32,240 bases of DNA from Polaribacter sp. (GCA_020631275.1 JAHDHO010000004.1:1-32240), one strand, 5' to 3'. Shown: positions 2,755-20,466, counted from the first letter of the stretch. Notes: a model not told the origin generated them from the sequence alone. Made by a program: numbers and translations.

Positions 2755-2811
2755 GTGTTAATTGTTTTTTAGTTAATTAATCAATATTAACTTAAAATAT
2801 TTAACAATCCT

Positions 2812-2840
2812 TAAAAAACACCACAACAAAAAACATACAT
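2812..2840 (-). promoter_or_regulatory. Conserved upstream motif copy A
   Basis: Plus strand TAAAAAACACCACAACAAAAAACATACAT, 28/29 identical to 20325-20353 upstream of susC; 57 nt before the ATG of the 1336-2754 gene. Confidence 0.7.
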
Positions 2841-3046
2841 CATAAAATAATAATGATTTTATTATCAAATAACCACAAAACCAGTAATAATAAGAAAAAT
2901 TAGAAACAATTTATTTATTGACTAAAATAAAATAATAAATAAAATCTTGTTGTATAGGTAATGTATGGTTTTAAAATATCTTACAGCAAAAATAAAATAC
3001 AGAAAACAAGAATTAACAATTAACAAATTAACTATATAACAAGCAG

Positions 3047-3112
3047 TTAAGGTATTTTTCAAGATATAAAACTAGATACAAATATAATTATGTTGTGCTA
3101 CAAATACCTTAA
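3047..3112. repeat. Distant inverted repeat TTAAGGTATTT ... AAATACCTTAA
   Basis: Perfect 11-bp arms at 3047-3057 and 3102-3112 separated by 44 nt. Confidence 0.6.
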
Positions 3113-3116
3113 AATA

Positions 3117-3132
3117 AGCCACTAAATTGGCT
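3117..3132 (-). terminator. Possible weak terminator hairpin at the end of the PUL operon
   Basis: Minus strand AGCCA-ATTTAG-TGGCT followed by TATTTT, overlapping the stop codon of the MFS gene. Confidence 0.35.
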
Positions 3133-4555
3133 ATGTATTGCTATTTCTTTTATCTAACTCAGCTCTTATAAGCAATGTTTTTTCTTCTGTAACATCATAA
3201 TTTCTCATTACGTACATTGCTGCCAAAGTTCCTAAGATTGGTAATCCCGAAAAGAAAATTCTTAACCCAAACATTGATTCTTCAGTTTGAATAGCCGCAC
3301 CAGATTCAAAATTTACAAAAGTTAAAATTAATCCACTTAATAAACCTGCAATTGCTAATCCAAATTTAACCATCCACCAATAAATTGCGCCAAAAATACC
3401 TTCTCTTCTTTTATTTGTATTTAACTCGTCGATATCAATAACATCAGAAGTCATAGACATCATCAAAGTAAATAAACTTCCAATACCAAAAGAAAAGAAT
3501 GGTAACGCAAACAAAAACATATATGGTTTACCCGGAATAAATAAAAACCAAAGTAGTATATACCCAACTACAGAAATACCTTGAGAAATTAAAAATGCTT
3601 TTTTCTTACCCATTTTTTTAGACATTTTAGCTACAATAGGTATTACTAAAAAAGTAGTTACTATTGCACCAACACTTCCAAATAAAGTGGGCCAAAGACC
3701 AAAATTAGATTCGTTTCCAGCAAATAAGTAATATTTAATAATGTAGTAAGAAAAACCTGCAATTGTATTGAAAGCATTAAATATTAAAAAAGTTGCAATA
3801 CATAATTTTTTAAAAGGTTCAATTTTTAAAGCAGCTCTAAAACCTTCTATTATTTCATTAAAACTACCACCGATATTACCTAATGTTAAAGACGAGTAAT
3901 TTTCATTTAAAGTTGACTTACTTTTGATAAAAATTGCAGGTACCGCAGCCAAAAAAGCACAAGCTATTGCTACATATATCGCTAAAGATCTAGTTGCAAC
4001 ATCGCCAGACGTAAATAATGTTGTATCTGCCATTAAAACCCAAAACCAAGGAGCAATTACCCAAGCCCATTGCCCAATTAATTGCGCTGTCGCCATTATA
4101 TTTGTTCGTTCATGAAAATCATCACTCATTTCATAGCCCATAGCAACATATGGAACACTAAAAATGGTTAACCCTAAATAAAAGACAAAAGACCAAAGTA
4201 AGAAATACGTAAAATTATAGTTTACAGAGTTTGATATATACATTTGCCACATCAAAGCAAACGAAACACCCATTATAATTGCACCAATTAAAACATATTG
4301 TCTTCTTCTACCCCATTTTGACTTAGTGTTATCTGAAATAAACCCCATAATAGGATCTGTAATTGCATCAAAAATTCTAGGAAGAAAATATAAAACACCT
4401 AACATCCAACCAGGAAAACCCAAATTTTCTACTAAAACCACAGTAAAAATTCCTAATACTGCCGGAAACATTTGATTTGCCAACATCCCTAAACCAAAAG
4501 CAACTTTTTGTCCGAAAGAAACTTTTTTCTTTTTTAATAAATTAGTTGATTCCAT
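3131..4555 (-). CDS. MFS transporter, GPH-type glycoside/cation symporter
   Basis: Multi-pass hydrophobic protein with DAITDPIMGFISDNTKSKWGRRRQYVLIGA, a signature of the GPH/MelB-like MFS_2 family. Confidence 0.85.
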   Translation of the reverse strand: MESTNLLKKKKVSFGQKVAFGLGMLANQMFPAVLGIFTVVLVENLGFPGWMLGVLYFLPRIFDAITDPIMGFISDNTKSKWGRRRQYVLIGAIIMGVSFALMWQMYISNSVNYNFTYFLLWSFVFYLGLTIFSVPYVAMGYEMSDDFHERTNIMATAQLIGQWAWVIAPWFWVLMADTTLFTSGDVATRSLAIYVAIACAFLAAVPAIFIKSKSTLNENYSSLTLGNIGGSFNEIIEGFRAALKIEPFKKLCIATFLIFNAFNTIAGFSYYIIKYYLFAGNESNFGLWPTLFGSVGAIVTTFLVIPIVAKMSKKMGKKKAFLISQGISVVGYILLWFLFIPGKPYMFLFALPFFSFGIGSLFTLMMSMTSDVIDIDELNTNKRREGIFGAIYWWMVKFGLAIAGLLSGLILTFVNFESGAAIQTEESMFGLRIFFSGLPILGTLAAMYVMRNYDVTEEKTLLIRAELDKRNSNT

Positions 4556-4560
4556 ATTTT

Positions 4561-6057
4561 TTAGATTGCGGGAATAATAATTGTTTGAATTGCTTGTGCA
4601 TCAATTTTTATAGATACCGATTTCTCTAAAAAATTTAAAGTGAAACTTTTTTGATTGAAGCCTTCATTAAAAACTACTACAGCAATAGAATCATCTGGAT
4701 TTTTGGCTGCTGTTACCTGTAAATCTTTATCAGAATTTGTAACTTCTATTATTACAGCTTCTGGTCTTATGTATTTACTAAAATGAGCTAAAGTGTAGTA
4801 TATTGGTGTAAAATACACTTCGTCTTTCTCTGGATCTACAATTACAGGTGCAACACACCAATTCTTAAACCAATTGGGTCCGCCTTGTGTATCTAAAACC
4901 ATATTCCAATCTACCCAACCATCTACATAATTATTTAAACAACCAATAATATCTCTTGCATATCTATTTACAGGCGCGTATTTTGGGTGTAAATGTCTAT
5001 CTTTTTCAGAAGCCCAATCCCAACCCCAATCTGTTGCTTCTTTAGACCAATACCATAAATCATCTTTCCATTTTGGCACTTCAGAATCTACACAACCTTC
5101 TGTTTCTATTAAATATTTGTTTGGAGATTTATGATGAGCATATTGCAAAGCCTCCGGAAAAACCTCGTACGTGCTTTCGTACCAGTGAATTGCTGTTCCG
5201 TCAAAATACTTAGCGCTTTCTTCGGTTTTATACATTTCATCTACCCACTCTTTTAAACCCGCTCTATTTTGATCGTATCCTAAAATCTTAACATCTGCTT
5301 TGCCTTCTTTTTCTAATTTTGGCCCTAAATAATTCTGAACAAAATCCGTCATTTCTTTTGGTGAATAATGCATGCTTTCCCAATTATTACCATTTCCATG
5401 CGGTTCATTTTCTACGGTAAAGCCCCAAATATCTATTCCTTCATTCTTATAAGCATCCACATATTTAGAAAAAAACAAAGCCCATGTATCATAATATTTT
5501 GGCAATAATTTACCACCAACCCAACTATTATTATCTTTCATCCAAGGTGCAGCAGACCAAGGAGAAGCAATAATTTTAAAACCATCCTTAGAAATCGCCA
5601 TTGCATCTTTAATCATAGGTATAATATCATCTTTATCTTCAGCAACAGAAAAATGTTTTAATTCTACATCGTCTGCGACTGGTGTATAAGAATAATTTGA
5701 CAATGAAAAATCACATGAATTCATATGAGTTCTTGTAAGAGAATATTTGGCACCTGATTCTCCGAAATAGGCTTCTAAAATCTGATTTCTTTTTACTTTG
5801 CTCAATTTATTTAACAAATACGCAGATGACTCTGTAAAAGAACCTCCAAAACCTGTTATCGTTTGAAACTTCTTTTGATCGTTAATTTTTATTGTTGATG
5901 AGTTTTCGTCTCCAGAAAAAGGTTTTATTTTAGAAAGTTTATTTCCTCTTGCAGAAGTTTCAAAAATTTTCACCTCTAAAACTTCTTGTTTTTTTCCGCA
6001 GCTTACTATCATCAAAATTGACATAAATAATAAGATGTTTTTTAGATCTATTTTCAT
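4561..6057 (-). CDS. GH30-family glycosidase lipoprotein (probable beta-1,6-glucosidase/glucanase)
   Basis: Lipobox MIVSC; FQTITGFGGSFTESSAYLLNKLS; acid/base motif WGFTVENEPHG; nucleophile region YLIETEGC; SPWSAAPWMKDN; typical of GH30. Confidence 0.9.
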   Translation of the reverse strand: MKIDLKNILLFMSILMIVSCGKKQEVLEVKIFETSARGNKLSKIKPFSGDENSSTIKINDQKKFQTITGFGGSFTESSAYLLNKLSKVKRNQILEAYFGESGAKYSLTRTHMNSCDFSLSNYSYTPVADDVELKHFSVAEDKDDIIPMIKDAMAISKDGFKIIASPWSAAPWMKDNNSWVGGKLLPKYYDTWALFFSKYVDAYKNEGIDIWGFTVENEPHGNGNNWESMHYSPKEMTDFVQNYLGPKLEKEGKADVKILGYDQNRAGLKEWVDEMYKTEESAKYFDGTAIHWYESTYEVFPEALQYAHHKSPNKYLIETEGCVDSEVPKWKDDLWYWSKEATDWGWDWASEKDRHLHPKYAPVNRYARDIIGCLNNYVDGWVDWNMVLDTQGGPNWFKNWCVAPVIVDPEKDEVYFTPIYYTLAHFSKYIRPEAVIIEVTNSDKDLQVTAAKNPDDSIAVVVFNEGFNQKSFTLNFLEKSVSIKIDAQAIQTIIIPAI

Positions 6058-6064
6058 AATATTT

Positions 6065-7075
6065 TTATTTTTTATCTAAAGATGAATACACGTTTTTCAC
6101 AATAGAAAAAACCTCTTTTTTCTTTCTATTAATATCTACTATCCCCCAAAATTCTTCATTGGGCGCACCGTCGTATGGCACACCAGAACTATTAGGAGCC
6201 CAACCGCCAATATCTTGTTGATTATTATTACCGGCTTTCCATAAACCATCTGTAAAAGAAAACAATGTTACACCGTTACCTTTATCTTTATTCGCTACAA
6301 TCTTGCTTAAAATTTTTGAAGTAGCTGCTGCTTGTGCCTTCTCGTTAATTCCTTTTTCAAAACCATCTTTAGCAATTGTCATATAACTATCACTTCCTGC
6401 TTCTGATAAATACATAGGTTTAGAACTAATTTTTTGCCATTGCATAAAAATTTCTTCCGGATTATCCCATCTATAAACATTCATCCCCCAGACATCTATA
6501 TTTTTACCCTTTTCATATGCAATAGCATCTGGCAACTCACCATGAGCCGTTGCTACTGGATGATTACTATCTATTTTATGAATTGCTACTGCTGCTTTAT
6601 CCATAACGTTATACCAATTTAAAATATCACCATCAAACCATTCTGGATGATAATTGTATTCATTCCCCAACTCCCACATTAAAATTGCCTTATGATTTTT
6701 AAATTTCTCTATATAATTTAAATAAGAGCCCGAAAACAAATCATTTTTACCATCTTGTTTATACCCAAAACCAATAATTACTTTAATACCTGCTTTTTCC
6801 AATTTATTTAAAATTGCAACCTCTGCAATAGGTTCATATACTCTTATAGTGTTTATGCCTGCATCTTGCATTAATTTTAAATCTTGATCTATACTTTTGA
6901 AACTTCTTTTATTGCTTCCTTTAGGAACCGGATGATAGCAAATTCCTTTAATAAAATAAGGTGTATTATTTACTAAAATCTTATTTTTTGCCACACTTAC
7001 AACATCAGTTTGTACCTCTTTATTACAAGTGGTAAAAAGTAATATCGATAAGAAAATTAATACGTAATTTTTCAT
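6065..7075 (-). CDS. Clan GH-A TIM-barrel glycosidase lipoprotein (GH2-catalytic/GH5/GH72-like; family uncertain)
   Basis: Lipobox LFTTC; FIKGICYHP, AGINTIRVYEPI; acid/base LMWELGNEYNYH; putative nucleophile MYLSEAGSDSY. Confidence 0.7.
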   Translation of the reverse strand: MKNYVLIFLSILLFTTCNKEVQTDVVSVAKNKILVNNTPYFIKGICYHPVPKGSNKRSFKSIDQDLKLMQDAGINTIRVYEPIAEVAILNKLEKAGIKVIIGFGYKQDGKNDLFSGSYLNYIEKFKNHKAILMWELGNEYNYHPEWFDGDILNWYNVMDKAAVAIHKIDSNHPVATAHGELPDAIAYEKGKNIDVWGMNVYRWDNPEEIFMQWQKISSKPMYLSEAGSDSYMTIAKDGFEKGINEKAQAAATSKILSKIVANKDKGNGVTLFSFTDGLWKAGNNNQQDIGGWAPNSSGVPYDGAPNEEFWGIVDINRKKKEVFSIVKNVYSSLDKK

Positions 7076-7090
7076 TTATAAGTTTAGTAT

Positions 7091-8365
7091 TTAGGGAAGT
7101 AAAACCGCCTCCATTAATTTTTGCTTATTCCCGTTATAAGACTTTATAATTGGTAAATTATTTCTTGTTAATGATTTAAACACATTTTTATCTACCAATT
7201 GCCATAGCGCAAATTTGGCCTCACTTTTATTATTTATTAATCCAAAGTGATTTTCTGATCCATCAGGATTTTCAGCATCTTTCCATTGCTCATCAAAAGC
7301 TTCAAAATAAAAACAAGTAACTCTATTACTACTAGACCATTCTCTTATAGATTTATAATATAAGGCTTGCTTATATTCATCGGTTGCTTTAGATCCTTTA
7401 GAACCATAAAAACCATTAGAATTTGTTGCCCAACCAGTTTCGCCTATATGAATCGGTTTTTGAACACCAAGACTTTCAACATATTTTTTTACATTTTCAT
7501 ATTGATTAATCGCATATTTTGCAGCTTTTTTCATTAAAGAATCTATTCTTAATTCTTTAGTTTTTTCGACACTTTTATCATTATAAACTTTCCAAAAAAC
7601 AGGATTATAATGTGTATCATGCATTGGATATGTGTGCATAGAAATAAAATCTACAGCTTTAATTAATTGTTTTAAATCCTTTGTATGGTAAGCTGTATCA
7701 CCACCACCCCAAGAGGCAAAATTATCTGAACTTGTAACCCAAAGTTTACTCGGCAACTCGCCTTGTTTCTTTAACTTTTGAAGATAATTCACCCATTTTA
7801 ATATCACTTTGGGCTGAACATAATAACTTGTTGCCCATTTTACCATTGCCTCATTACCAACAGAAATAATTTTTACAATTTTTGGATATTTCTTTGCCAA
7901 TGTAACAGCTGTTTCTATTTCAAAGGCATTTCTATCACTTTCTTCAAAATGATTAGGAGCTTTATTATTACTCCCAAAAGCGTTTTTGCAATCGATCCAA
8001 GCACCCAACATTACATACATTTCAAAGCCATTTTCTTCTTGTTTAAGTTGATAAATAGCTTCTAACAAATTTGCCGCTTGCTTTAAATGAACATTATACG
8101 TTCTTAAAACTTTAATGTTCATTGCAGACAAAATTTTTAAATCATCTTTTAGTTCTTGCATTGTAGGCTGAATATCTCTTGATTTTTGTCGATATCCGCC
8201 ATATGAAATAGCTAAATACTCTGCATTACCTAGAATTTCTGATGCTGACAAATTTCCATCTTCAACCTTGTTCTTAGTTGCATTACCTTTACATGAAATG
8301 ATAAAAAAGAGCATAATTATCCACACAAAATAAAGGACACAATTCTTCTTTTTTATCATTTCCAT
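7091..8365 (-). CDS. GH17-family beta-1,3-glucanase-like lipoprotein
   Basis: Lipobox IISC; MNIKVLRTYNVHLKQAANLLEAI; ISVGNEAM acid/base; FISMHTYPM; IHIGETGWAT nucleophile; all typical of GH17. Confidence 0.85.
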   Translation of the reverse strand: MEMIKKKNCVLYFVWIIMLFFIISCKGNATKNKVEDGNLSASEILGNAEYLAISYGGYRQKSRDIQPTMQELKDDLKILSAMNIKVLRTYNVHLKQAANLLEAIYQLKQEENGFEMYVMLGAWIDCKNAFGSNNKAPNHFEESDRNAFEIETAVTLAKKYPKIVKIISVGNEAMVKWATSYYVQPKVILKWVNYLQKLKKQGELPSKLWVTSSDNFASWGGGDTAYHTKDLKQLIKAVDFISMHTYPMHDTHYNPVFWKVYNDKSVEKTKELRIDSLMKKAAKYAINQYENVKKYVESLGVQKPIHIGETGWATNSNGFYGSKGSKATDEYKQALYYKSIREWSSSNRVTCFYFEAFDEQWKDAENPDGSENHFGLINNKSEAKFALWQLVDKNVFKSLTRNNLPIIKSYNGNKQKLMEAVLLP

Positions 8366-8380
8366 TTTTATAATACTTTA

Positions 8381-11300
8381 TTAAAATGACACTCTAATAC
8401 TTGTCACCTCATTGGTTCTTTTGAATAATTTCATACTAACTTTTTGAGTTAACTCTAATTTTTTAAAAACATCTTTTTCGCCATTTTCATAAAAAACAAT
8501 TACATTTTTAGTTCCTGATTTCTCATAAACTATGGGTACTTGGCAATACGTAAAACTCAATTGATTTTCTAAAACTTTAATTGATTTTACATCACCAGAA
8601 ACTGCGACGTAATTAAAAAGCTTTTCTTCTGATAAAAATTCTGAAGATTTTAATAAACGAGGATTAAAAACAATTTTCCCATCCTTAACAAAAACCCCTA
8701 ATTCACCGAATCTACTTAAAATATCTTCCTTAACTTGACCTGTCATACCTGGTTGTTGCGCTCCTTTACCAGCAGGTGTATGAGAATAAGCATCCGTAGG
8801 AAATGCACCATATAATTTTGGAGATTTGTGCACTCCAATTCCTGCATTTATTTCATAATAATGATCTAAAAGTCTTCCAATAATAGCTTCATCTTCATTA
8901 TTTCTTACTGCCAATAAGCAGTTTTCTTGCACAGCAACTAATAATTTAGAAACCATGTGCCAATAAATTGAACCTAAACCTTCGTAACCAAAAAATGTAC
9001 CTGAACGACCTGTAAATGATTTATGATCAAAAATATCTTCAAAAATTGCAAAAACTTTAGCTGAGTCTTTATCTATTAATTTTTGGTACTTTTCTTTTGA
9101 TAAATTACCTAAAGCTTCTTTTAAGCTATTTGCATTATTAAAATTACCGTTAAAATGATAATTTCCTAAAATATCTTTTTCAATAATTTCTTTATTATTC
9201 TCTTTTACTAAAGCAGATAATAATTCTGAATTTTCAACACTGTTTTTAGCGATGTTATTCTTCTTTGTAAATCTTGGTAACTCTTTATTTGGATATAAAA
9301 TGTAACTGTACTGATCTTCTCTAAAAAGCGCACTGTTTTTTAATCCATCTAACAAACTAAGCGCTTCTTTTGGTGATAAATAGCCAGAACTTAAAACAGC
9401 AACCTGCCCTTCTAACATTTCAGACAGATAAGAAATTGATACCTCTTCTTTGCTTTCTATCGTCATTAAATTATAAGCATGAAACATATTATCTTTACGC
9501 TTGTTTGCTCTAATAGAATGTTCTAAGTACTTGTTTGTAACATTTATAAATGCTAATAAATCTTCTTTAGATATAGTTTTTTTTGTTGCAGAAAATCCAT
9601 TTTTATAAATATCTAATCTGTATTTACTCGCGGGTATTCCAAGACCATCTAACACTGTTTTTCTTTCTTTATCTGTAAAATCTCTAGATAAAATAGATTG
9701 ATATTTATTTAAAGTAGCTAAGACTTCGTTGAACAAAGTTTGTAATTCAGAAGAAATATTTACTTCAGAAATTGAAGATTCGCTTACTATATTCTCGTAA
9801 AAATTTAAGAATCTGCGTAAATAATAAAGTGTAACCATAGAAACACCATTACCTACCAAAGCGTTATTGGCATCGTTCCATTCTGGTCGTTGGGTATTCA
9901 ACCAAATACCTGCTTCTGGTATAAAATTAGAAACCTTTGCTAAAACTGTTGCTAATAATTTTTCTATTAAATTAACCTTATAAATTTCTTTATTTTTAAC
10001 TTCTAAAAGCGCTCCATCTGCACCAAGTTTACTTCTTTTATTATCTATTTCTGCATTTAATTGGTAATCAAAATCAATTGTATCTTTCGGATTTTCTAAT
10101 ATTTCTTCGTAAGATTTGATTTTGTATGGCACATTTGCATATACAAAAATATCCTCTGTAAATAATTTTGTTAATTCACTTGGGTAATGTTTCTCGATAA
10201 ACTCTAAAAACTTAAGCAAATAAATAATTTGATGATCACCCCAATAACCAATATAAGACCAAGGGTCGTGCTCTTCTATAACTTCCCAATCAAAACCACC
10301 TTTTGTAACTCTGTAAGGATTATAACCATCAAAAGTTGTTGCATTTAAAAACTTATGAATCATACTCTCGATAAACTCCGGATAAGAATGCGCTAAAGCC
10401 TCCCAATTCTGAAAAATATCACGCCAATTCCCCTCATAATCTAAAACTTTAGATCCGTCAACTTCATTTTTCGTATTGATAGAAAATTTGTTCCAAGGTC
10501 TACTTGGGTCTCCGTGTCTTCTACTAAACTTTAATGGTAAATACTCTAAACATAAACGCTTAAAATCTTTATCTGAGCTCGAATTCGCAATCTTTTTTAC
10601 TTCGGATAAGTTAAAAACAGCAGTTAATTTATTTAATTCAGCTTTATTATCTTGAAACACATTCTTATTTGCTTTTTGTAAATAGTTGATAAAATCTTCT
10701 TTTTCGATAGTATAATTATCGTCAAAAATTCCACCTCTCATTATATTAAAAAGCGTATTAGAAAAGTGTCTTGTATTCACTAAATCGTCTTCTGTTAACT
10801 GTAAACCGTCTGCAGAAGCCGTTAACTTTATTAAGTTTTTTGTACCCAAATCAATATCATCTTGCAATAAATTTTCTACTGCAGTTTTAGATTTTATTAT
10901 TTCAGAAATTTCTACAACATCAGCTACAGATTGATTTACGTTAGCAACTTGCAACCATTTTTTTTCTGAATTAGAAGGTAAATTGAATTCGAAAGCAGTT
11001 AAATAAGCACCTTTTTCTGCTTTAATTGCTGTTTCTTGCTCTAAAGCAACACCTCTTCTAAAGTTATTAATTTGTAGTGATGATAGTAAATAAGTAGGAT
11101 TGTTGATACCTAAAGACCATACAATGTTTGCTTTTAATGCTTCACTAGGTTCTGCTTTATCTACAATAATTGCACTTAAAGCATAAATACCTAAACCAAC
11201 ATGTTCTTCTAATTCACATTTTTTATAAGCATCTGCCAAATTACTAATATTTGCTTGTAAATCTGACCCAATACCAAACGGAATTATATCTTGAAAACCA

Positions 11301-11815
11301 TCTAGAGCTTCAACATTTATATTGGTTTTAGCATTGTTTACTAGAGTTGCTTTTCTAACAAAACCAAACTTATCACTAGAATTCCATTCATACTTAAAAG
11401 TTAATTCTAAATCGTTATTAATTTCTTCAAAAACAATTTTATTACCAAAAGTATTCTTATAAATATTTCTTGTTATATCATACAAACCAGCTTGTCTATC
11501 AGAAAAAGGTTCCCAAAGTTTTGTGCTTTCTTGCTCTTTTATTCTAAAAATAGTTTTACAACCTGTTGTTTCTGCTAACGCTGTAATTTTATCGTCTGTA
11601 TAATACGGAAATAAAGCATATTGAGCATTTTTTCTACCAGCAGTTAAACCACCATTACTCGATACAAACATCCAATGGTTCGAGTCTGACACAATGGTCA
11701 TAAAAAAAGGACGCATTGTATGTGTGTTTTCAATCTTATAAAAAGACTCTTTTTCTATAGTTACCAATTTTCCGTTATTAGTTACTATTGGCTTATCTTT
11801 AAAATCAGTACTCAT
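8381..11815 (-). CDS. Probable beta-1,3-oligoglucan phosphorylase, GH149-like (GH94/GH149 lineage)
   Basis: 1144 aa with no signal peptide; RRHGDPSRPWNKFSI, YEGNWRDIFQNWEALAHSYPEF, FDWEVIEEHDPWSYIGYWGDHQIIYL, EGLGSIYWHMVSKLLVAVQE; size, motifs and beta-1,3-glucan PUL context fit GH149. Confidence 0.75.
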   Translation of the reverse strand: MSTDFKDKPIVTNNGKLVTIEKESFYKIENTHTMRPFFMTIVSDSNHWMFVSSNGGLTAGRKNAQYALFPYYTDDKITALAETTGCKTIFRIKEQESTKLWEPFSDRQAGLYDITRNIYKNTFGNKIVFEEINNDLELTFKYEWNSSDKFGFVRKATLVNNAKTNINVEALDGFQDIIPFGIGSDLQANISNLADAYKKCELEEHVGLGIYALSAIIVDKAEPSEALKANIVWSLGINNPTYLLSSLQINNFRRGVALEQETAIKAEKGAYLTAFEFNLPSNSEKKWLQVANVNQSVADVVEISEIIKSKTAVENLLQDDIDLGTKNLIKLTASADGLQLTEDDLVNTRHFSNTLFNIMRGGIFDDNYTIEKEDFINYLQKANKNVFQDNKAELNKLTAVFNLSEVKKIANSSSDKDFKRLCLEYLPLKFSRRHGDPSRPWNKFSINTKNEVDGSKVLDYEGNWRDIFQNWEALAHSYPEFIESMIHKFLNATTFDGYNPYRVTKGGFDWEVIEEHDPWSYIGYWGDHQIIYLLKFLEFIEKHYPSELTKLFTEDIFVYANVPYKIKSYEEILENPKDTIDFDYQLNAEIDNKRSKLGADGALLEVKNKEIYKVNLIEKLLATVLAKVSNFIPEAGIWLNTQRPEWNDANNALVGNGVSMVTLYYLRRFLNFYENIVSESSISEVNISSELQTLFNEVLATLNKYQSILSRDFTDKERKTVLDGLGIPASKYRLDIYKNGFSATKKTISKEDLLAFINVTNKYLEHSIRANKRKDNMFHAYNLMTIESKEEVSISYLSEMLEGQVAVLSSGYLSPKEALSLLDGLKNSALFREDQYSYILYPNKELPRFTKKNNIAKNSVENSELLSALVKENNKEIIEKDILGNYHFNGNFNNANSLKEALGNLSKEKYQKLIDKDSAKVFAIFEDIFDHKSFTGRSGTFFGYEGLGSIYWHMVSKLLVAVQENCLLAVRNNEDEAIIGRLLDHYYEINAGIGVHKSPKLYGAFPTDAYSHTPAGKGAQQPGMTGQVKEDILSRFGELGVFVKDGKIVFNPRLLKSSEFLSEEKLFNYVAVSGDVKSIKVLENQLSFTYCQVPIVYEKSGTKNVIVFYENGEKDVFKKLELTQKVSMKLFKRTNEVTSIRVSF

Positions 11816-11948
11816 TGACTTTATTTTTATTTTATTATTTTAAAAAATTGATATAAAAATCTTGCACTCTAATTCTTAAGAATGTACAATTCTATGACCT
11901 AAATACCTTAATTTTATTTAATACAACTACTTACAAAAGAGTTGTTTA

Positions 11949-13661
11949 TTATTGAAATACTTTAATATAATCTACCTCCATTACATCTTCTGTAAAAGCT
12001 GGATCTACATCACCACCAAGTGTTCCTCCCATAGCAACATTCATAATAAAAAAGAAGTCTGAATTAAAAGGCAAAGAAGTATCATTTGCAAGTGTATGGT
12101 AAGCAACATTGTCTATAGAAAATTTAATTTCAGTTTCAGACCAATCTATCGAATACACATGAAATTCTGTTGTAGATGTTGGCAAATTAGTAGACATTGA
12201 TGGTCCGCCTCCACCAAAATTACCAGGATAATGTATGGTGCTTAAAACTGTATTTTTATCACTCCCTTTTTGCTCCATAATATCCATTTCTCCTGCATTT
12301 GGCCAACCAACCGAATTAAAATTGGCTCCTAACATCCATATTGCAGGCCATGTACCTTGCGATGCTGGCAATTTGGCTCTAATTTCAAATCTACCGTAAG
12401 TAAATTCTTGTAACCCTTCCGATTTTAATCTAGCAGAAGTGTAACCCGCACCATTTTTCTTTGCTTTAATTTTTAAACTTCCGTTTTCTACAATTACATT
12501 TTCTGCATTATTCGTATACGTTTGAAGCTCGTTATTTCCCCAGCCACCTGCACCTAGATCGTAAGTCCAGTTTGCTGCATTTGGCGCTCCATCAGTATTA
12601 AAATCATCTTCCCAAACTAAATTTGTAAAAGCAGAAGTTGTTGCAGAACCTGGTTTTACTGTTGTAAATTTAAAATACCATGCTAAATTAGGATCTACAC
12701 CATCTAAAGTTCTAACATACATTTCTGTTTCTGAAATTTCTAAAATTTCGAAACTTGTAGAACTAACATAATATGCCATAAAACCACCGTTAGAAAAATT
12801 CATTTGAGTTCCTCTTGGCTGAAAAGCAGGATCTGCTACTTTAGACCAATCTTCAGATGAAGGTGCTAATGAAACATTACTATCGAATGAAGTATCAAAA
12901 GTAAAACATTCATCTCCGTTTGCTCCAGAAGCACCAACAACTGTTTGGTGTGCTGCATTTCCGTTGAAAAAAGTTTCTCCTTTGTTATCTAAAGCATACG
13001 TCATCGAGCCGTCTTCATTAATTGTAAATGTTAACTCATCGTCTGAATAACAATCATTTGTTGTACCTGCTGCGGCTGCAAAAAATGCTGGATAATAATA
13101 CTGACTTGGTCCTCCGTTAATTTGAATATCAAACGCTAAAGAAGGTCCAACACCTAAAGCACCATCAACAGTATTGTCGATGTACCAAGTTTTAGAAACC
13201 GGTGTAGTAACTTCTAAAATATCGTTACCAGCAGCATCTTTAGTCAAAGGTGCACCAGATAAAAAAGATCTAGCTTGAATATCATCAAAAGCACTAAAAA
13301 CCTCTAAAAGTACTGTAGAAGATGATGAAACACCACCTTTACCAGATGCAATAATTGTTACATTATATGTGTTTACCCCAGTTTTAGTAAATCTGTGTTC
13401 TACTTCTCCGCTAGAAGAAGCCACTTTATCAGAACCATCACCAAAATTATAAATATAACTTACTGCGTTGTTTGCAGTGGCTTTAAATTTTACAATTCCA
13501 GATCCATCACCATAAACGTTCACATCATCTTTCCCTATAATTTCATTTTGAATATTAATATTACTAGGAACTGCTATTTGACCAAATTCTTGATCTTCTT
13601 CTTGACAACTAAATAGTGTTATTGTCAATGAAAATAATAGTATATATTTTAATGTTTTCAT
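11949..13661 (-). CDS. GH16 endo-beta-1,3-glucanase (laminarinase) lipoprotein with PKD domain
   Basis: Lipobox LFSC followed by QEEDQE; PKD-like YIYNFGDGSDKVASSSGEVEHRFTKTG; GH16 NELQTYTNNAENV...GTWPAIWMLG...WPNAGEMDIMEQKG with the ExDxxE catalytic motif. Confidence 0.95.
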   Translation of the reverse strand: MKTLKYILLFSLTITLFSCQEEDQEFGQIAVPSNINIQNEIIGKDDVNVYGDGSGIVKFKATANNAVSYIYNFGDGSDKVASSSGEVEHRFTKTGVNTYNVTIIASGKGGVSSSSTVLLEVFSAFDDIQARSFLSGAPLTKDAAGNDILEVTTPVSKTWYIDNTVDGALGVGPSLAFDIQINGGPSQYYYPAFFAAAAGTTNDCYSDDELTFTINEDGSMTYALDNKGETFFNGNAAHQTVVGASGANGDECFTFDTSFDSNVSLAPSSEDWSKVADPAFQPRGTQMNFSNGGFMAYYVSSTSFEILEISETEMYVRTLDGVDPNLAWYFKFTTVKPGSATTSAFTNLVWEDDFNTDGAPNAANWTYDLGAGGWGNNELQTYTNNAENVIVENGSLKIKAKKNGAGYTSARLKSEGLQEFTYGRFEIRAKLPASQGTWPAIWMLGANFNSVGWPNAGEMDIMEQKGSDKNTVLSTIHYPGNFGGGGPSMSTNLPTSTTEFHVYSIDWSETEIKFSIDNVAYHTLANDTSLPFNSDFFFIMNVAMGGTLGGDVDPAFTEDVMEVDYIKVFQ

Positions 13662-13691
13662 TTTTATATTTTTATAAAGTTATCTTTTATA

Positions 13692-15683
13692 CTAGTTGCT
13701 AGATAATGAAACATTATCAATATTAACTTGACCTACAGCTGCACCTAAATCGAAAATTACTCTGGCATCTGTTGCACCAAAATCTGTTGCCGTTAAGGTT
13801 ACACTATACGTTGTTACTTCTGTTGTTATATTTACAGTTTCTGCTGTATTAGACCAAGGCGCTGCGCTTAAACCAATTCCTGCAATTATTGGTCTATTTA
13901 CATCAGACCAAGCATCAAAAGTTAATGTGTATGTGTTTCCTTGAACTATTTCTACCTTCTGACTCAAGTTTACATCATAAGGATTTCCTGCAGCTGTTAC
14001 ATTTACAGAATAATATGTATTACCATTATCTGTAACTACTGGTGCAGAAGAGTTATCATCTACGCCTATTAACCAAGAATCGCTTCCGTTTTCAAAATCT
14101 GAATTATTTAACACATTTCCTTTTCCTATGATTAACGATACGTTATCAATATTTACTAAACCAACTGCTGCACCAATATCGAAAATTACTCTCGCATCTA
14201 TTGCCCCAAATTCTGTAGCCATAAGTGTTATTGAATATGAAGATCTTGTTGGAGTAATGTTAACTGTTTCTGTTGTATTAGACCAAGGTGAAGCACTTAA
14301 ACCAATACCTGCAATAATTGGTCTATTTACGTCTGACCAAGCATCAAAAGTTAATGTGTAAGTATTGCCTTGAATAATTTCTACTTTCTGACTTAGATTT
14401 ACATCATAAGGATTTCCTGCAGCTGTTACATTTACAGAATAATATGTATTGCCATTATCTGTAACTACTGGTGCAGAAGAATTATCATCAACACCAATTA
14501 ACCAAGCTTCACTTCCATTTTCAAAATCTCCGTTTGTTAATAAACCATCGTTAAAAGTAGTTGAAGCATCTGGCTCTTTATAGAAATAAAAATTATCTAT
14601 ATAAACTACATTAGAAATGCCATCAGAATCAATTAAAATTTGAGTAATCTTATTCTTGTTTGCTAGATCACCACCGTCAAAACCTGTAATATCTAAATCT
14701 ATACTTTGCCAAGATCCACCAACGGTTGTGCCTAAAGATTCTACATCTTCACCACCATCTACAGTGTTAACTATTTTAACTAACAACTCATTGGTAGCAT
14801 CATTAGGCACCCAATAATCTATGTGTAATTTTTCCATAGAAGATACATCGATTCCGCTATCGTAAATGGTAACCATACCAACAAAATCTAAATTTGTTAA
14901 TTTCCAAACATTATTATTATCTATTGTTACTGCTTCGAAACCAGAAGAAGACCAAGTTGTAGGTAATTCGTTTAATGTTACATCGGTATAAGTATCACTA
15001 AAAATCGAAACAACGTCTTCTGCTTTTCTATTCTTCGGATTTGGTGCCGCTTCTAATGGCGCTAAAATTTCTGTTACTGTAAATTCTTCTGTATATTCTA
15101 AAGTTGCAATTGCTGCACCTTTTGCTACAATTTTAATTGAATAATCACCCGCTTCTTTATAAAGGTAAGAAATAGTTTCACCTATATTACCAGAAACTGG
15201 TTCGGTTGCATTTACTTCACCTGAATAAAAATCGAACATGGATGCAAAATCTGCATTTACAGTAATATTTACTTGTTTAGATATTGCTGCATCATTTTCT
15301 AAAACTACAACTATATTTTGAGGTGCTTTAAATGAAACTACCAATTGTTGTATAGCTTCAGTTTTATCTCCGTTTAAATTATAAGCAACAATTTTTACAT
15401 CGTGCGTACCTTCTGAATAAACATTAGATGCACTTTCGCCTTGTTCTAAATTAACCGGCGTAGTAGTATCTGCATCAAAATAAACATCGTAATAAGTTGC
15501 TCCTTCTGCATTTGGCGTAATTGTAACTTCGCCAGTATTATCTTGCTTTATATTATAACTAGCTGTAACATTTGTTGGTGCCGATATATTATCTGCAAAA
15601 GAAAGGTCGTTTAAATTATCTTTACACGCTGCAAACAAGAACAATACGATAAAGAATCTATATATATTATTTATTTTTTTCAT
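13692..15683 (-). CDS. SusE/F-position surface glycan-binding lipoprotein with PKD-like domains and two tandem CBM4_9-like domains
   Basis: Lipobox LFAAC; Ig/PKD-like N-terminus; two copies of NxDFENGSxxWLIGVDDNSSAPVVTDNGNTYYSVNVTAAGNPYDVNLSQKVEI.QGNTYTLTFDAWSDVNRPIIAGIGLS. Confidence 0.8.
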   Translation of the reverse strand: MKKINNIYRFFIVLFLFAACKDNLNDLSFADNISAPTNVTASYNIKQDNTGEVTITPNAEGATYYDVYFDADTTTPVNLEQGESASNVYSEGTHDVKIVAYNLNGDKTEAIQQLVVSFKAPQNIVVVLENDAAISKQVNITVNADFASMFDFYSGEVNATEPVSGNIGETISYLYKEAGDYSIKIVAKGAAIATLEYTEEFTVTEILAPLEAAPNPKNRKAEDVVSIFSDTYTDVTLNELPTTWSSSGFEAVTIDNNNVWKLTNLDFVGMVTIYDSGIDVSSMEKLHIDYWVPNDATNELLVKIVNTVDGGEDVESLGTTVGGSWQSIDLDITGFDGGDLANKNKITQILIDSDGISNVVYIDNFYFYKEPDASTTFNDGLLTNGDFENGSEAWLIGVDDNSSAPVVTDNGNTYYSVNVTAAGNPYDVNLSQKVEIIQGNTYTLTFDAWSDVNRPIIAGIGLSASPWSNTTETVNITPTRSSYSITLMATEFGAIDARVIFDIGAAVGLVNIDNVSLIIGKGNVLNNSDFENGSDSWLIGVDDNSSAPVVTDNGNTYYSVNVTAAGNPYDVNLSQKVEIVQGNTYTLTFDAWSDVNRPIIAGIGLSAAPWSNTAETVNITTEVTTYSVTLTATDFGATDARVIFDLGAAVGQVNIDNVSLSSN
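13695..14545 (-). repeat. Tandem duplication of CBM module, 429-bp (143-aa) period
   Basis: Blocks near 13980-14059 and 14409-14488 are almost identical at the nucleotide level (GGTGCAGAAG at 14041 and 14470). Confidence 0.9.
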
Positions 15684-15693
15684 CTTTTAACTA

Positions 15694-17184
15694 TTAATTA
15701 TATCCTTGATTTTGAGACCAACGATTACCTGTTAATTGAATTTCTATTGCCGGAATTGGAAACAGCTCATTTTTATCTGTTTGAAAACCAGAAATATTCG
15801 CTGCTGCTTCTCCCGTTCTTACTAAATCGAAAAATCGATGCCCTTCACCAGCTAATTCTAATCTTCTTTCATTAAAGATAATAGCTGTTAAATTTGCTCC
15901 GGTTTCTGAGATATTATGTAACATGTCTCCAAAAGCACGTTGCCTTACTAAATTTAAATATTCTAATGCCTTAGCATCATTTGCCGTAGGTTTTCTATTA
16001 TGAGCCTCTGCAGCCATTAACAGAACGTCTGCAAAACGAATTGCTCTGTAATTATTAGGATTTGTTAAATTTCTATCAGCTTGTGCATCTGTACCTCTTT
16101 TTCTTGGTAAATATTTTTTATTAAAATAACCAGTATGTTCGAAACCAGTATTAAATTCTGCTCCTGTTTGAGTTGCCCAAGCATTAATATCTAAAATTGT
16201 TAGATCTTTTCGCATATCACCGTCTTCAAAAGCATCTACTAAATCTTGTACAGGAACGTTAAAACTAAAACCAGAAGTAAACTCTGGTCCTTCATAACCT
16301 CTTACACCGTTAAATCCAACAGCAACATTACCTTCACTACACTGTAAACATCCAAAACCCGCACCTTGTGTTTCTGTATATTGCACTTCAAACACAGATT
16401 CTACACTATTTTCATTATCATTTTCAAACAAATCCATAAACGTAGCTGCATCCGTAACTAAACTGTGTGGTCCATTTAAAATTAAATTATCTAAAACGTC
16501 GGCAGCTTCTGTAAATTTATTTTGATATAAATATGCTTTACCTAACAAAGCTTCTGCTGCTCCTTTAGTAACTCGTCCTGTTTCTGACTGAACATATGGC
16601 AAATTGTTTGCCGCAAATATTAAATCTTGTTCTATTTGCAAATAAACCTCTGCTTTAGGCGTTCTATCTAGATTAAATTGATCTCCAAAAAGAATTCTTT
16701 GATCTACAACCAAAGGCACATCACCAAACCATTTTACCAACTCGAAATAATAATAAGCTCTTAAAAATCTTGCTTGTGCAATCACTTCTTCTTTACCAGA
16801 AAAATCTATTTTATCTTTAAACTCTAAGATATAATTCGCTCTGTTAACACCTGCAAACATCCAACTCCAGATATCTCTTAATTGCTGATTTTCTGATGTA
16901 TGAATCATGTCATCAATTTCTTGAATAGCAACAACATCTGTTGCACTTTCTCCGCCTGCTAATGTATTATCTGATGCAATTTCACCTAACAGAACGTTTA
17001 AATACGAAGATTGTAACATATCATAAGCACCAATTAAAGCGTTTTGATAATCTTCTTCTGTATTAAAATAATCTTCTGAGTTTTCTGCTGTCGATTCTAC
17101 ATCAACAAAATCATCACTACAACTTGTAATTAAAATTGAAGAGAATAAAAAGATAGCTATATATTTTATATGTAATTTTTTCAT
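15694..17184 (-). CDS. susD: SusD/RagB-family nutrient-binding lipoprotein
   Basis: Lipobox ITSC with SDDFVDVES; ARFLRAYYYFELVKWFGDVPLV; RAIRFADVLLMAAEAHNR; ERRLELAGEGHRFFDLVRTG. Confidence 0.97.
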   Translation of the reverse strand: MKKLHIKYIAIFLFSSILITSCSDDFVDVESTAENSEDYFNTEEDYQNALIGAYDMLQSSYLNVLLGEIASDNTLAGGESATDVVAIQEIDDMIHTSENQQLRDIWSWMFAGVNRANYILEFKDKIDFSGKEEVIAQARFLRAYYYFELVKWFGDVPLVVDQRILFGDQFNLDRTPKAEVYLQIEQDLIFAANNLPYVQSETGRVTKGAAEALLGKAYLYQNKFTEAADVLDNLILNGPHSLVTDAATFMDLFENDNENSVESVFEVQYTETQGAGFGCLQCSEGNVAVGFNGVRGYEGPEFTSGFSFNVPVQDLVDAFEDGDMRKDLTILDINAWATQTGAEFNTGFEHTGYFNKKYLPRKRGTDAQADRNLTNPNNYRAIRFADVLLMAAEAHNRKPTANDAKALEYLNLVRQRAFGDMLHNISETGANLTAIIFNERRLELAGEGHRFFDLVRTGEAAANISGFQTDKNELFPIPAIEIQLTGNRWSQNQGYN

Positions 17185-17194
17185 GGTCTATTTT

Positions 17195-20100
17195 TTAAAA
17201 ATTAACATTTAATCCTACTAAAAAAGTCTTTGGAGTTGGATAAAATCCTTGATCAATTCCGCCACCAATTGGTGCTCCGTTAGAAGTTGTTGGGTCGTAA
17301 CCTCTATATTTAGTTAACGTAACTAAATTATTTGCAGATACATAAAAACGGAACTTACTTAAACCTACTTGTTCTAATATTTTTTGGTCTAAAGAATACC
17401 CCAATTGTATATTTTGCAACCTTACAAAAGAACCATCTTCTACAAAAAAGTCAGAAAAAAGTGCGTTACTATTTGCCCCTGTTGTAACTCTCGGAAAAGT
17501 ATTTGATGTTCCGGCACCTGTCCATCTATCTAAATAATATCTTGGTCTGTTTGTTAATGGTAAATTTCTTTCGAAGTTTCTTACAATTTCATTTCCAAGA
17601 GATGCAAAAGCATACATGTTAAAATCGAAATTTTTATAGTCAAAAGAAAAATTTAAACCCATTGTTACATCAGCAATAGGATCTCCGATGTATGTTTTAT
17701 CTTCATTTGTAATTTCTCCATCGTTATTAATGTCTCTAAATCTTAAATCTCCAGGATTCGCATTTGTCTGTGTTGCATGTGCATCAACTTCTGCTTGAGT
17801 TTGAAAAATTCCATCTGTTTGATATCCGTAGAAATAACCGATTGGCATACCTGCTTCCATTCTAGAAGGTGGATCTTGACCTACACCAAATGAACCGCCA
17901 AATAAAACGCCGCTTTCATTACCAACAAATAAAACTTCGTTTTCTAAAGTTGTGAAATTATACTTAATTCCGAAGTTAAAATCTTCTGAAACCGTTTCTT
18001 TGTAACCAATTGAGAACTCGAAACCTTTATTCTCTACAGTACCTGCATTTACAATAGGACTTCCAGAACCTGGTGCAGAAGCACCTAAGATTCCTGAAAC
18101 TTCTGGATTTAACAATAAATCTTCAGTTCTCTTATTAAAGTAATCTGCAGTAATATTTATTTTATTAAAAAGCTCTAAATCTACACCAATATCTAAAGGA
18201 ATTTGTTTTTCCCATTTAATTTCTGGATTCGATATTGCGCCAAGAGCAGTTCCGAATTGCAATTGATTATTAAAAACATATTCTCCTTCACCTGATAAGG
18301 TAGAAACAAAACCAAAACTCGAAATTCTATCGTTACCAATTACACCGTAACTTGCTCTTAATTTTAAAAAGCTTAAAACATCGTTATCTTCTAAAAACTT
18401 TTCTTTAGAAGCTACCCAACCAACTGATGCAGTAGGAAAATATCCAAATTTATTTTTTGGTCCGAAGTTTGAAGATCCATCTCTTCTAATTACTGCAGAC
18501 ATTAAATACTTACCATCATAATTGTATTGCAATCTTGCAAAATAAGATAACAACCTACTGTCAAAAAAACGTCTTGGTTGATTGCTAAGTGCTAAATTAT
18601 CTTGAGATGTATCTGCCCCTGAAACACTAACACTCTCTAATGTATTACCATTAGCTCCGAAACCTAATAAATTAGACTTATTAATTCCTTGAGATCTAAA
18701 AACCGAAGTACCTAATAAGACTTTAACATCATGAACATCATTAAAAGTTTTCTCATATTTTAATAAAGCATCAAAAGTATAATCTTTATAAGTCTGTTCA
18801 CTTTCAAAAACAGATGAAGTATTATTTGCATCCGTTAAATCTGCAAGAGCACTTACAGTATTAAACACCTTACCAGAACCATAATAAACTTCTGGACTAT
18901 AACTTTTTGTTTTTACTGATGCATGGTTAAATTGAATTCTAGATTCTGCAGAAAAACCGTCTAAAAAAGAATAATTTAAACCATAGCTACCAGCAAATTT
19001 ATTTACCCATGTTCTATTGTAAGCGTTTTCTGTTTGCGCAAGAGGATTCACAACTTCGATACCAACACCTGTGTTTGGCGCAAAAGAATAATCGCCATTA
19101 GCATCTCTAATTGAAATATTAGAAGGCATGTTTAAGGCATTAAATAAAACAGAACCTAAAGCATTTTCTGGCAAACCTCTTCTATTAGTATTCGTATAAA
19201 TTGAAGAAGATGTAAATTTTAAATTTTCTAAAATATCTGTACTAAAATTAAATTTAGCTGTAGTTCTATTAAAATTCGCTTTAGAACCACCTACAATACC
19301 ATCTTGATCTAAATGTGATGCACCAAAAGAATACGTAGATTTATCGGTACCTTTGGTAGCATTAAAATCTATACTAGAAATTGCAGCGTCTTTAAAAACT
19401 TCGTCTTGCCAATTTGTACCTACACCCAAATTAGAAATATTGTTAAAAGGCAAACTCTCTGCATTTGCAGCAAAAGCTTCGTTTGCTAAAAGAGCATATT
19501 CTGTAGCGTTTAATAAGCTGATGCTTCTAGTAGTTCTTTGAAAACCTGCATAAGCGTTTAAATTGTATTTAAACTCTGTATTTTTTCTACCAGATTTTGT
19601 TGTAATAATAATAACTCCGTTTGCACCACGTACACCGTAAATACCAGCCGAAGCATCTTTTAAAACATTCATAGATTCGATGTCTGATGGATTTATAACA
19701 CTTAAATCTTCTATAACATTACCATCTACCAATATTAAAGGGTTGTTATTTCCGTTTGTAGAAATACCTCTAATTCTAATATTTAAAGCTGCACCTGGTG
19801 CACCAGAAGAAGATGTAATGTTTACACCTGCAACTTGACCTTGTAAAGCTTGTTCTATTCTTGTTGGTTTTAAATTCTGAATTTCTTCACTCGAAACAAC
19901 GGCAACTGCACCTGTAATTTCCTTTTTCTTCTGAGCACCATAACCTACTACAACAATTTCATCTAAAGATTCTGATTCTACTGTTAAAAAAACATTTAAA
20001 TTGATAGAAGAAACTGTAACCTCAACCTCTTTTTCTGCATAACCTAGATATCTAAAAACTAAAACTGCTCCTTTTCTTATACTGTTTAGAGAGTAATTTC

Positions 20101-20269
20101 CTTCAAAATCTGTATTTGTTCCTTTAGCTGTACCTTTTAATATGATGCTAACTCCTGGTAGCGGATCTCCATTAGCAGCATCTTTAACAACACCTTTTAT
20201 ATTTATAGTTTGTGCAGTTGCACAAAAACCTATAAATAATAGAAGTAAAAATGTGATTTGTTTTCTCAT
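17195..20269 (-). CDS. susC: SusC/RagA-family TonB-dependent transporter
   Basis: Carboxypeptidase-like N-terminal domain (IKGVVKDAANGDPLPGVSIILKGTAKGTNTDFEGNYSL); DEIVVVGYGAQKKKEITGAVAVV; plug GVRGANGVIIITTKSG; 1024 aa. Confidence 0.97.
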   Translation of the reverse strand: MRKQITFLLLLFIGFCATAQTINIKGVVKDAANGDPLPGVSIILKGTAKGTNTDFEGNYSLNSIRKGAVLVFRYLGYAEKEVEVTVSSINLNVFLTVESESLDEIVVVGYGAQKKKEITGAVAVVSSEEIQNLKPTRIEQALQGQVAGVNITSSSGAPGAALNIRIRGISTNGNNNPLILVDGNVIEDLSVINPSDIESMNVLKDASAGIYGVRGANGVIIITTKSGRKNTEFKYNLNAYAGFQRTTRSISLLNATEYALLANEAFAANAESLPFNNISNLGVGTNWQDEVFKDAAISSIDFNATKGTDKSTYSFGASHLDQDGIVGGSKANFNRTTAKFNFSTDILENLKFTSSSIYTNTNRRGLPENALGSVLFNALNMPSNISIRDANGDYSFAPNTGVGIEVVNPLAQTENAYNRTWVNKFAGSYGLNYSFLDGFSAESRIQFNHASVKTKSYSPEVYYGSGKVFNTVSALADLTDANNTSSVFESEQTYKDYTFDALLKYEKTFNDVHDVKVLLGTSVFRSQGINKSNLLGFGANGNTLESVSVSGADTSQDNLALSNQPRRFFDSRLLSYFARLQYNYDGKYLMSAVIRRDGSSNFGPKNKFGYFPTASVGWVASKEKFLEDNDVLSFLKLRASYGVIGNDRISSFGFVSTLSGEGEYVFNNQLQFGTALGAISNPEIKWEKQIPLDIGVDLELFNKINITADYFNKRTEDLLLNPEVSGILGASAPGSGSPIVNAGTVENKGFEFSIGYKETVSEDFNFGIKYNFTTLENEVLFVGNESGVLFGGSFGVGQDPPSRMEAGMPIGYFYGYQTDGIFQTQAEVDAHATQTNANPGDLRFRDINNDGEITNEDKTYIGDPIADVTMGLNFSFDYKNFDFNMYAFASLGNEIVRNFERNLPLTNRPRYYLDRWTGAGTSNTFPRVTTGANSNALFSDFFVEDGSFVRLQNIQLGYSLDQKILEQVGLSKFRFYVSANNLVTLTKYRGYDPTTSNGAPIGGGIDQGFYPTPKTFLVGLNVNF

Positions 20270-20324
20270 AAATAAAGAGTTTTATTTTTTTGATAAATTT
20301 AACACCGTTTAATTGCTAAATCGA

Positions 20325-20353
20325 TAAAAAACACCTCAACAAAAAACATACAT
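20325..20353 (-). promoter_or_regulatory. Conserved upstream motif copy B (upstream of susC)
   Basis: Plus strand TAAAAAACACCTCAACAAAAAACATACAT, 28/29 identical to 2812-2840; 55 nt before the susC ATG. Confidence 0.7.
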
Positions 20354-20451
20354 AGCAATTTTTAACACAAAACACTTTGTGACCCCTTATTTTATGTAGA
20401 AACGCAGACCTTAGTAAATCCGAAGAAATTATTAATGTTGTGGTATTGTAT

Positions 20452-20466
20452 AGTATAAAATATACT
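20452..20466. repeat. Small inverted repeat in the susC/regulator intergenic region
   Basis: AGTATA-AAA-TATACT perfect 6-bp arms, just downstream of the regulator stop; possibly a hairpin. Confidence 0.4.

Follow-up and report, generated by a model that had tools for sequence, protein, structure and literature searches.

What makes two genes that lie far apart in a gene cluster, each with a promoter of its own, share the same short piece of DNA in front of them? The question is raised by a 32,240-nt stretch of Polaribacter sp. DNA (GCA_020631275.1, JAHDHO010000004.1:1-32240; "the window" in what follows means this whole stretch), in which a 29-bp motif is found both upstream of susC, the first gene of a glucan operon, and upstream of a distant gene encoding a protein with the sorting tail of the type IX secretion system (T9SS). 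A first-pass annotation of the window had considered the motif to be either a shared regulator-binding site or an element of the 5′-untranslated region (5′-UTR), and had named the SusR-like protein encoded next to susC as the possible regulator; the shared regulator site stands as the best reading, while the 5′-UTR part does not. We regard it as very likely that the motif belongs to a bipartite operator and that the operator is served by the SusR-like protein encoded beside it, a membrane-spanning activator of a laminarin locus which would co-activate both promoters. Beyond the earlier annotation go the distal half of the predicted operator, its 11-bp tandem structure, a third target (a gene similar to glycoside hydrolase (GH) family 158) and the substrate, a laminarin-type β-1,3-glucan.

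The two copies, TAAAAAACACCACAACAAAAAACATACAT at 2812–2840 and TAAAAAACACCTCAACAAAAAACATACAT at 20325–20353, differ in a single base, and both promoters bearing them are oriented to the minus strand; from the end of the motif to the ATG it is 57 nt in the case of the T9SS gene (1336–2754) and 55 nt in that of susC (17195–20269), all of which agrees with the first-pass annotation. Dinucleotide shuffling (100 shuffles) gives an expectation of 0 for such a pair, and pattern searches of the whole assembly (2.73 Mb, 89% complete) with up to three mismatches returned these two sites only. Further matches to the 20-bp core with up to three mismatches are no commoner in this genome than those to a reversed control, and the extra targets proposed from core matches with two or three mismatches were rejected as being at control level. 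The sequence flanking the motif had been described as not conserved, which holds for most of it, but not for a −7 box 22–23 nt downstream and a tandem repeat (the distal tandem) ~100–130 bp upstream, both of which are common to the two promoters.

When 400 genomes of the family Flavobacteriaceae were searched by pattern, 42 matches to the 29-mer were found in other genomes and none to the reversed control; in all 30 loci examined the motif precedes susC (12) or a GH158-like gene (18) of a β-1,3-glucan locus, and in 22 of them a SusR-like regulator lies on its other side. A scan of GTDB genomes, for which the pattern included the −7 box, gave, among the matches listed, named hits only in Flavobacteriales or unplaced Bacteroidia; in the 80 loci annotated from among these listed matches, the motif stands before susC (37), susD (1), a GH158-like gene (24), a T9SS gene (8) or a GH16 gene (1), which makes 71 before a susC/susD, GH or T9SS gene, the others being contig edges (6) or unassigned (3), and the regulator is immediately upstream in 52. 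Within the genus, 20 loci represented by two sequence stretches each (~0.8 Mb, both strands) were scanned with a position weight matrix at a threshold of 14: all 43 matches above it lie on the coding strand, none elsewhere, and what follows them is susC, a GH158-like gene or a T9SS gene in every case but one, an open reading frame (ORF) similar to a carbohydrate-binding module (CBM) of family 4 in the same locus. In 16 of the 20 congeneric loci the motif is found before the syntenic T9SS gene at the end of the polysaccharide utilization locus (PUL); because the site recurs there, the tie between T9SS protein and glucan operon is supported well beyond a single genome. Near identity over 29 bp on one contig could also be left behind by a recent duplication or gene conversion devoid of any regulatory role. 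However, the surrounding sequence differs, the same pair of promoters carries the element in those 16 loci and it is present in other genera too, and the core is far more constrained than the flanks; because of this conservation across species such an origin deserves practically no credence. The 29-mer is a conserved, putative regulatory element of marine and freshwater Flavobacteriaceae.

Alignment of the sequence upstream of the motif in 133 promoters brought out a further element, ACCnnWACAnn-ACCnnWACA, in which the unit recurs in tandem every 11 bp; it reaches the score threshold (at least 12 of 14) in 131 promoters, as opposed to 1/133 when shuffled and 3/133 in the other orientation. It lies about 88–158 bp upstream of the proximal motif and in the opposite orientation; read on the opposite strand, the distal unit also fits the 29-mer (ACCWCAACAAA-AAACATACA), and when nothing but the distal unit is used to scan the window, all four sites, two proximal and two distal, come back along with a single chance match in susC. 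In the susC promoter, the proximal half-sites are ACCTCAACAAA-AAACATACA on the plus strand (20333–20352, 11-bp spacing), and the distal tandem, oriented opposite to them, is centered ~103 bp from the proximal one; in the T9SS-gene promoter this distance is ~131 bp. A 15-bp direct repeat inside the 29-mer (TGTTTTTT) was considered and dropped; the 11-bp half-site repeat also fits the distal box. Another candidate that was rejected is a perfect tandem of the distal type on contig C118 of the same genome, which is located inside a coding sequence and has no proximal site. The 29-mer is the predicted promoter-proximal half of a two-part operator, the distal half being a new finding.

The distances between the distal and proximal sites cluster near 90, 102, 114, 124, 135, 147, and 158 bp, a periodicity of 11.2 bp, or about one helical turn (R=0.63 for the 118 promoters in which the distal site is single and unambiguous). 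On 78 non-redundant spacers R is 0.58 (simulated maximum, 0.34), and when each of 18 genera contributes a single promoter it is 0.73 at the same period, a value that 0 of 1000 null draws reached. This stepwise ~11.2-bp spacing suggests that distal and proximal sites have to lie on one and the same helix face. The regulator might, on the other hand, bind both sites without a loop, the distal tandem serving to raise its local concentration or acting on the end of the regulator gene, in which case phasing would reflect crowding or shared ancestry. The distal boxes of susC promoters are indeed located just past the stop codon of the regulator gene and some spacings, including that of the T9SS promoter in the window, are off-peak; but distal boxes are also found at GH158-like and T9SS promoters which do not adjoin the regulator, and the phasing persists at one promoter per genus. 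We consider this variant possible but rather unlikely.

The −7 box recognized by sigma-A in Bacteroidetes has the consensus TAnnTTTG. In 66 of 86 motif-aligned promoters TAnnTTT stands at one fixed offset, 22 or 23 nt past the motif, with about one occurrence per position elsewhere; a variant of the box, TAATATTG, which the T9SS-gene promoter of the window has, is seen again at most such promoters in relatives. The place of the −33 box, whose consensus is TTTG, is taken by the T-tract of the motif, and the conservation profile has no clear TTTG. It was further seen that in most promoters a weakly conserved T-rich run with a G-rich end (TTTTTTTnnG) occupies positions −10 to −1 before the 29-mer. 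Might the motif, rather than being an operator, be a 5′-UTR/RNA element or an extended feature of the core promoter, e.g., a sigma-factor element? The fixed ~55–60 nt to the ATG of susC and T9SS genes and the constant distance to the −7 box would be in line with this; at GH158-like genes, however, the distance to the ATG varies (~70–130 nt) while that to the −7 box is fixed, the motif is specific to the locus and not genome-wide, and it is linked to a distal repeat in opposite orientation. Because the −7 box is downstream of it, the motif should lie upstream of the transcription start and be untranscribed, which disfavors a 5′-UTR element; explanations of this type appear very improbable.

Which protein, then, would recognize the operator? 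Most likely it is the adjacent SusR-like regulator (20478–23285), which would bind the motif as a shared site. It consists of an N-terminal hydrophobic leader, a Reg_prop/Y_Y_Y sensor and a C-terminal helix-turn-helix (HTH) of the GerE/LuxR type (NISPRSVEVKRYRLRKKM); Pfam matches are Y_Y_Y, GerE and, weakly, Reg_prop, one hydrophobic transmembrane stretch can be read from the sequence near residues 737–757, sensor structures of hybrid two-component systems (HTCS) are matched, and a Pfam scan revealed no HisKA, HATPase, receiver or AraC HTH domain. The site tracks the regulator: besides the 22 of 30 loci mentioned above, the core with up to one mismatch is found in 30 of 40 congeners encoding a regulator orthologue (roughly at least 45% identity; counts tallied from two lists) versus 0 of 20 without one. 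The motif follows nearly all regulator orthologues of at least 42% identity and is absent after regulators of 31–36% identity outside the family. In 41 of 41 aligned orthologues the recognition helix, NIS-P/V-RSVEVKRYRLRKK, is nearly invariant.

Regulator paralogues encoded next to further susC or T9SS genes differ in both recognition helix and half-sites, the layout being similar (loci L261–L264, L265–L268, and L269–L277; the layout was partly read by eye). As against ACCnnWACA sites for helix type NISPRSVEVKRY, tandem repeats of TACGTCAT together with TGACGTA in inverted orientation are found for NISHRGVETHRY; for NISVKSVEIRRY the tandem repeats are ACCTCTACATT and the proximal site is TTTTGTAAAGGT; for NVAITSVEQSRY copies of TTTTGTAGAGGT lie 32 bp apart. 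The 11-bp period is enriched in the intergenic regions of the paralogues (8 loci versus 0.9 in shuffles, several of the loci being close relatives). If a different, unlinked transcription factor or a global regulator bound the motif, the SusR-like protein would be a mere neighbor, and in principle two different proteins could even account for the 29-mer on the one hand and the distal repeat on the other. This is improbable, as the same half-site occurs in both elements and changes with the recognition helix in the paralogous loci, the motif is missing from all 20 congeners without the regulator, and no off-locus target was found in the genome of the window or seen elsewhere in the congeners. 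Two of the regulators of 31–36% identity may carry related ACTACATC/ACCTCT repeats; at L319 and L320, regulators of 36% identity outside the family, the repeats downstream are related ones of the ACTACATCATTACCTC and ATGTAGAGGT-like kind, which may be a remoter form of the operator.

For the SusR-like regulator as the activator, the following scheme can be drawn. In each half of the operator, two half-sites would follow one another at an 11-bp interval. The distal half (ACCnnWACAnnACCnnWACA) and the proximal half, which reads TGTATGTTTTTTGTTGWGGT from the promoter, would be oppositely oriented and face each other, and from the end of the proximal half to a −7 box of the form TAnnTTTA/G there would be ~30 nt. 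Once the periplasmic Reg_prop/Y_Y_Y domain has bound a β-1,3-glucan oligosaccharide, a dimer of the regulator, or a dimer of dimers, would use its cytoplasmic HTHs to occupy both tandems from the same side of the DNA; between the distal and proximal tandems the DNA would probably form a loop, and RNA polymerase would be recruited at the −7 box. The targets here would be the susCD-SGBP-GH16-GH149-GH17-GH158-GH30-MFS operon (SGBP, surface glycan-binding protein; MFS, major facilitator superfamily) and, independently, the secreted β-sandwich T9SS protein. While the sites, their layout, conservation and phasing, and their linkage to regulator and targets can be read directly, we infer binding, activation, effector, and looping. 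Several observations weigh against the scheme: the two spacings in the window (103 and 131 bp, center to center) differ by a non-integral number of turns, that of the T9SS promoter (131 bp) being off-peak and a real exception to the phasing; 4 of the 20 congeneric T9SS genes have no good proximal site; in a few cases (L046, L051, L316) the proximal match at an orthologous regulator is weak or missing; and both the effector and the role as activator, not repressor, would follow from homology to SusR of B. thetaiotaomicron.

Operators of Bacteroides SusR have been predicted for starch and dextran loci as direct repeats with a center-to-center distance of 67 or 77 bp (Ravcheev et al. 2013; PMC3878776). 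Common to those systems and the one described here are a Bacteroidetes-specific membrane regulator encoded beside susC/D, two well-separated sites at whole helical turns, and a similarity of motifs that tracks the similarity of regulators (PMC3878776); unlike in Bacteroides, each site is an 11-bp tandem pair, the pairs are opposed, the spacing of ~90–160 bp changes by one turn at a time, and the system belongs to a laminarin locus of Flavobacteriaceae. The regulator of the window has the SusR-like layout of sensor, transmembrane segment and HTH without a kinase, its gene is next to susC/susD, and its two sites are whole helical turns apart across relatives, the T9SS promoter of the window being off-peak; the direct orientation at 67 or 77 bp is not found, this being a predicted property of the Bacteroides members which does not define the family. 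With the HTCS of Bacteroides it shares the periplasmic Reg_prop/Y_Y_Y sensor and operators made of direct repeats, which in HTCS are spaced ~21 bp (PMC3878776), but it has no histidine kinase, receiver or AraC HTH and its output domain is of the GerE/LuxR type. As for the locus, laminarin PULs of Formosa and Muricauda also contain SusCD, PKD, GH16, GH17, GH30, GH149, and MFS (PMC6246565, PMC13188888); a LuxR-type regulator is annotated first in many Muricauda clusters (PMC13188888) and the Formosa PULs are induced more by laminarin than by glucose (PMC6246565), whereas the passages considered here describe neither an operator nor a co-regulated T9SS gene (PMC6246565, PMC13188888). A literature search among open-licence papers found no description of a Flavobacteriaceae operator of such kind.

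The locus (Table 1) is a PUL for laminarin-type β-1,3-glucan, as indicated by SusCD together with GH149, GH17, GH16, GH30, and CBM4; the genes are arranged in the order SusR-like regulator, SusC, SusD, CBM4_9, PKD-GH16, GH149, GH17, GH158-like, GH30, MFS, T9SS, and the nearest named SusC proteins are from Polaribacter. The GH158-like gene has no operator of its own in the window; a ~1050-aa relative elsewhere has one. Divergent from the regulator gene is a very large ORF (23578–32238, plus strand, >2887 aa) with a Laminin_G_3-type domain, which exits the window; no operator was found upstream of it.

Table 1. Predicted genes and regulatory elements of the laminarin locus in the window
Feature	Position	Strand	Basis
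Proximal operator, T9SS-gene promoter (ATGTATGTTTTTTGTTGTGGTGTTTTTTA)	2812..2840	-	
Distal operator, T9SS-gene promoter, tandem AACCATACATT-ACCTATACA	2951..2970	-	Distal-unit scan
Predicted −7 box TAATATTG, T9SS-gene promoter, 22 nt past motif	2782..2789	-	
Proximal operator, susC promoter (ATGTATGTTTTTTGTTGAGGTGTTTTTTA)	20325..20353	-	Motif search, position weight matrix, conservation
Distal operator, susC promoter, tandem TACTATACAAT-ACCACAACA	20436..20455	-	Distal-unit scan
Predicted −7 box TAAATTTA, susC promoter, 23 nt past motif	20294..20301	-	
SusR-like regulator, 935 aa	20478..23285	-	
susC, TonB-dependent transporter, first gene of the putatively site-controlled operon	17195..20269	-	
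susD	15694..17184	-	
CBM4_9 surface glycan-binding protein	13692..15683	-	CBM vs laminarinase 16A CBM4 (1gui), E=1.4e-9
PKD + GH16 β-glucanase	11949..13661	-	
GH149 1,3-β-D-glucan phosphorylase	8381..11815	-	1797 bits, cutoff 1150
GH17 laminarinase	7091..8365	-	Match to 6fcg, E=1.5e-173
GH158-like/clan GH-A hydrolase	6065..7075	-	Glyco_hydro_2_C hit; weak match to GH158 9oro
GH30	4561..6057	-	
MFS sugar transporter	3131..4555	-	
T9SS cargo with signal peptide, two β-sandwich domains, Por_Secre_tail	1336..2754	-	

The T9SS gene terminates the PUL and has its own promoter. Behind the signal peptide its product has two similar (~82% identical) β-sandwich domains of ~180 aa each and a type A C-terminal sorting domain (PF18962, E=1.3e-15; TIGR04183, 49.2 bits, cutoff 23). 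The repeat domain is modeled as a confident β-sandwich (pLDDT 93); its best PDB hits in a fold search include CBM22, CBM4, and CBM11 but are weak (E>0.003, TM ~0.3), the fold search assigned no confident family, and profile comparison found no PDB relative. A secreted glucan-binding role is plausible. In the PUL-terminal T9SS proteins of congeners (L093–L132) promoter, signal peptide, and sorting tail are kept, the middle modules are entirely different, and these swapped modules carry near-identical internal repeats; the PUL-terminal protein is, on this pattern, a modular, fast-changing surface protein. At the T9SS genes of G405 and G414, which have no standard proximal site, variants such as TGTAGTGTTCA-TGTAGTGGT were noticed, again an 11-bp tandem.

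Flavobacteriaceae consume much of the laminarin in the sea, where few polysaccharides are more abundant, and in the literature searched no DNA code was found described by which they switch on their laminarin loci. The operator proposed here would be such a code, by which the regulon could be predicted from sequence alone, and a T9SS-secreted surface protein of unassigned function would join the laminarin response. The half-sites of the paralogues suggest that the grammar extends to other glycan loci. About as likely as not is a still broader view, in which a family of membrane-tethered one-component activators of Flavobacteriaceae would share this grammar, namely, a far 11-bp tandem, an inverted tandem by the −7 box, spacing in whole turns, and half-sites set by the recognition helix, with the loop formed at the inner membrane; were it to hold, it would amount to a regulator-to-target code for marine glycan loci.

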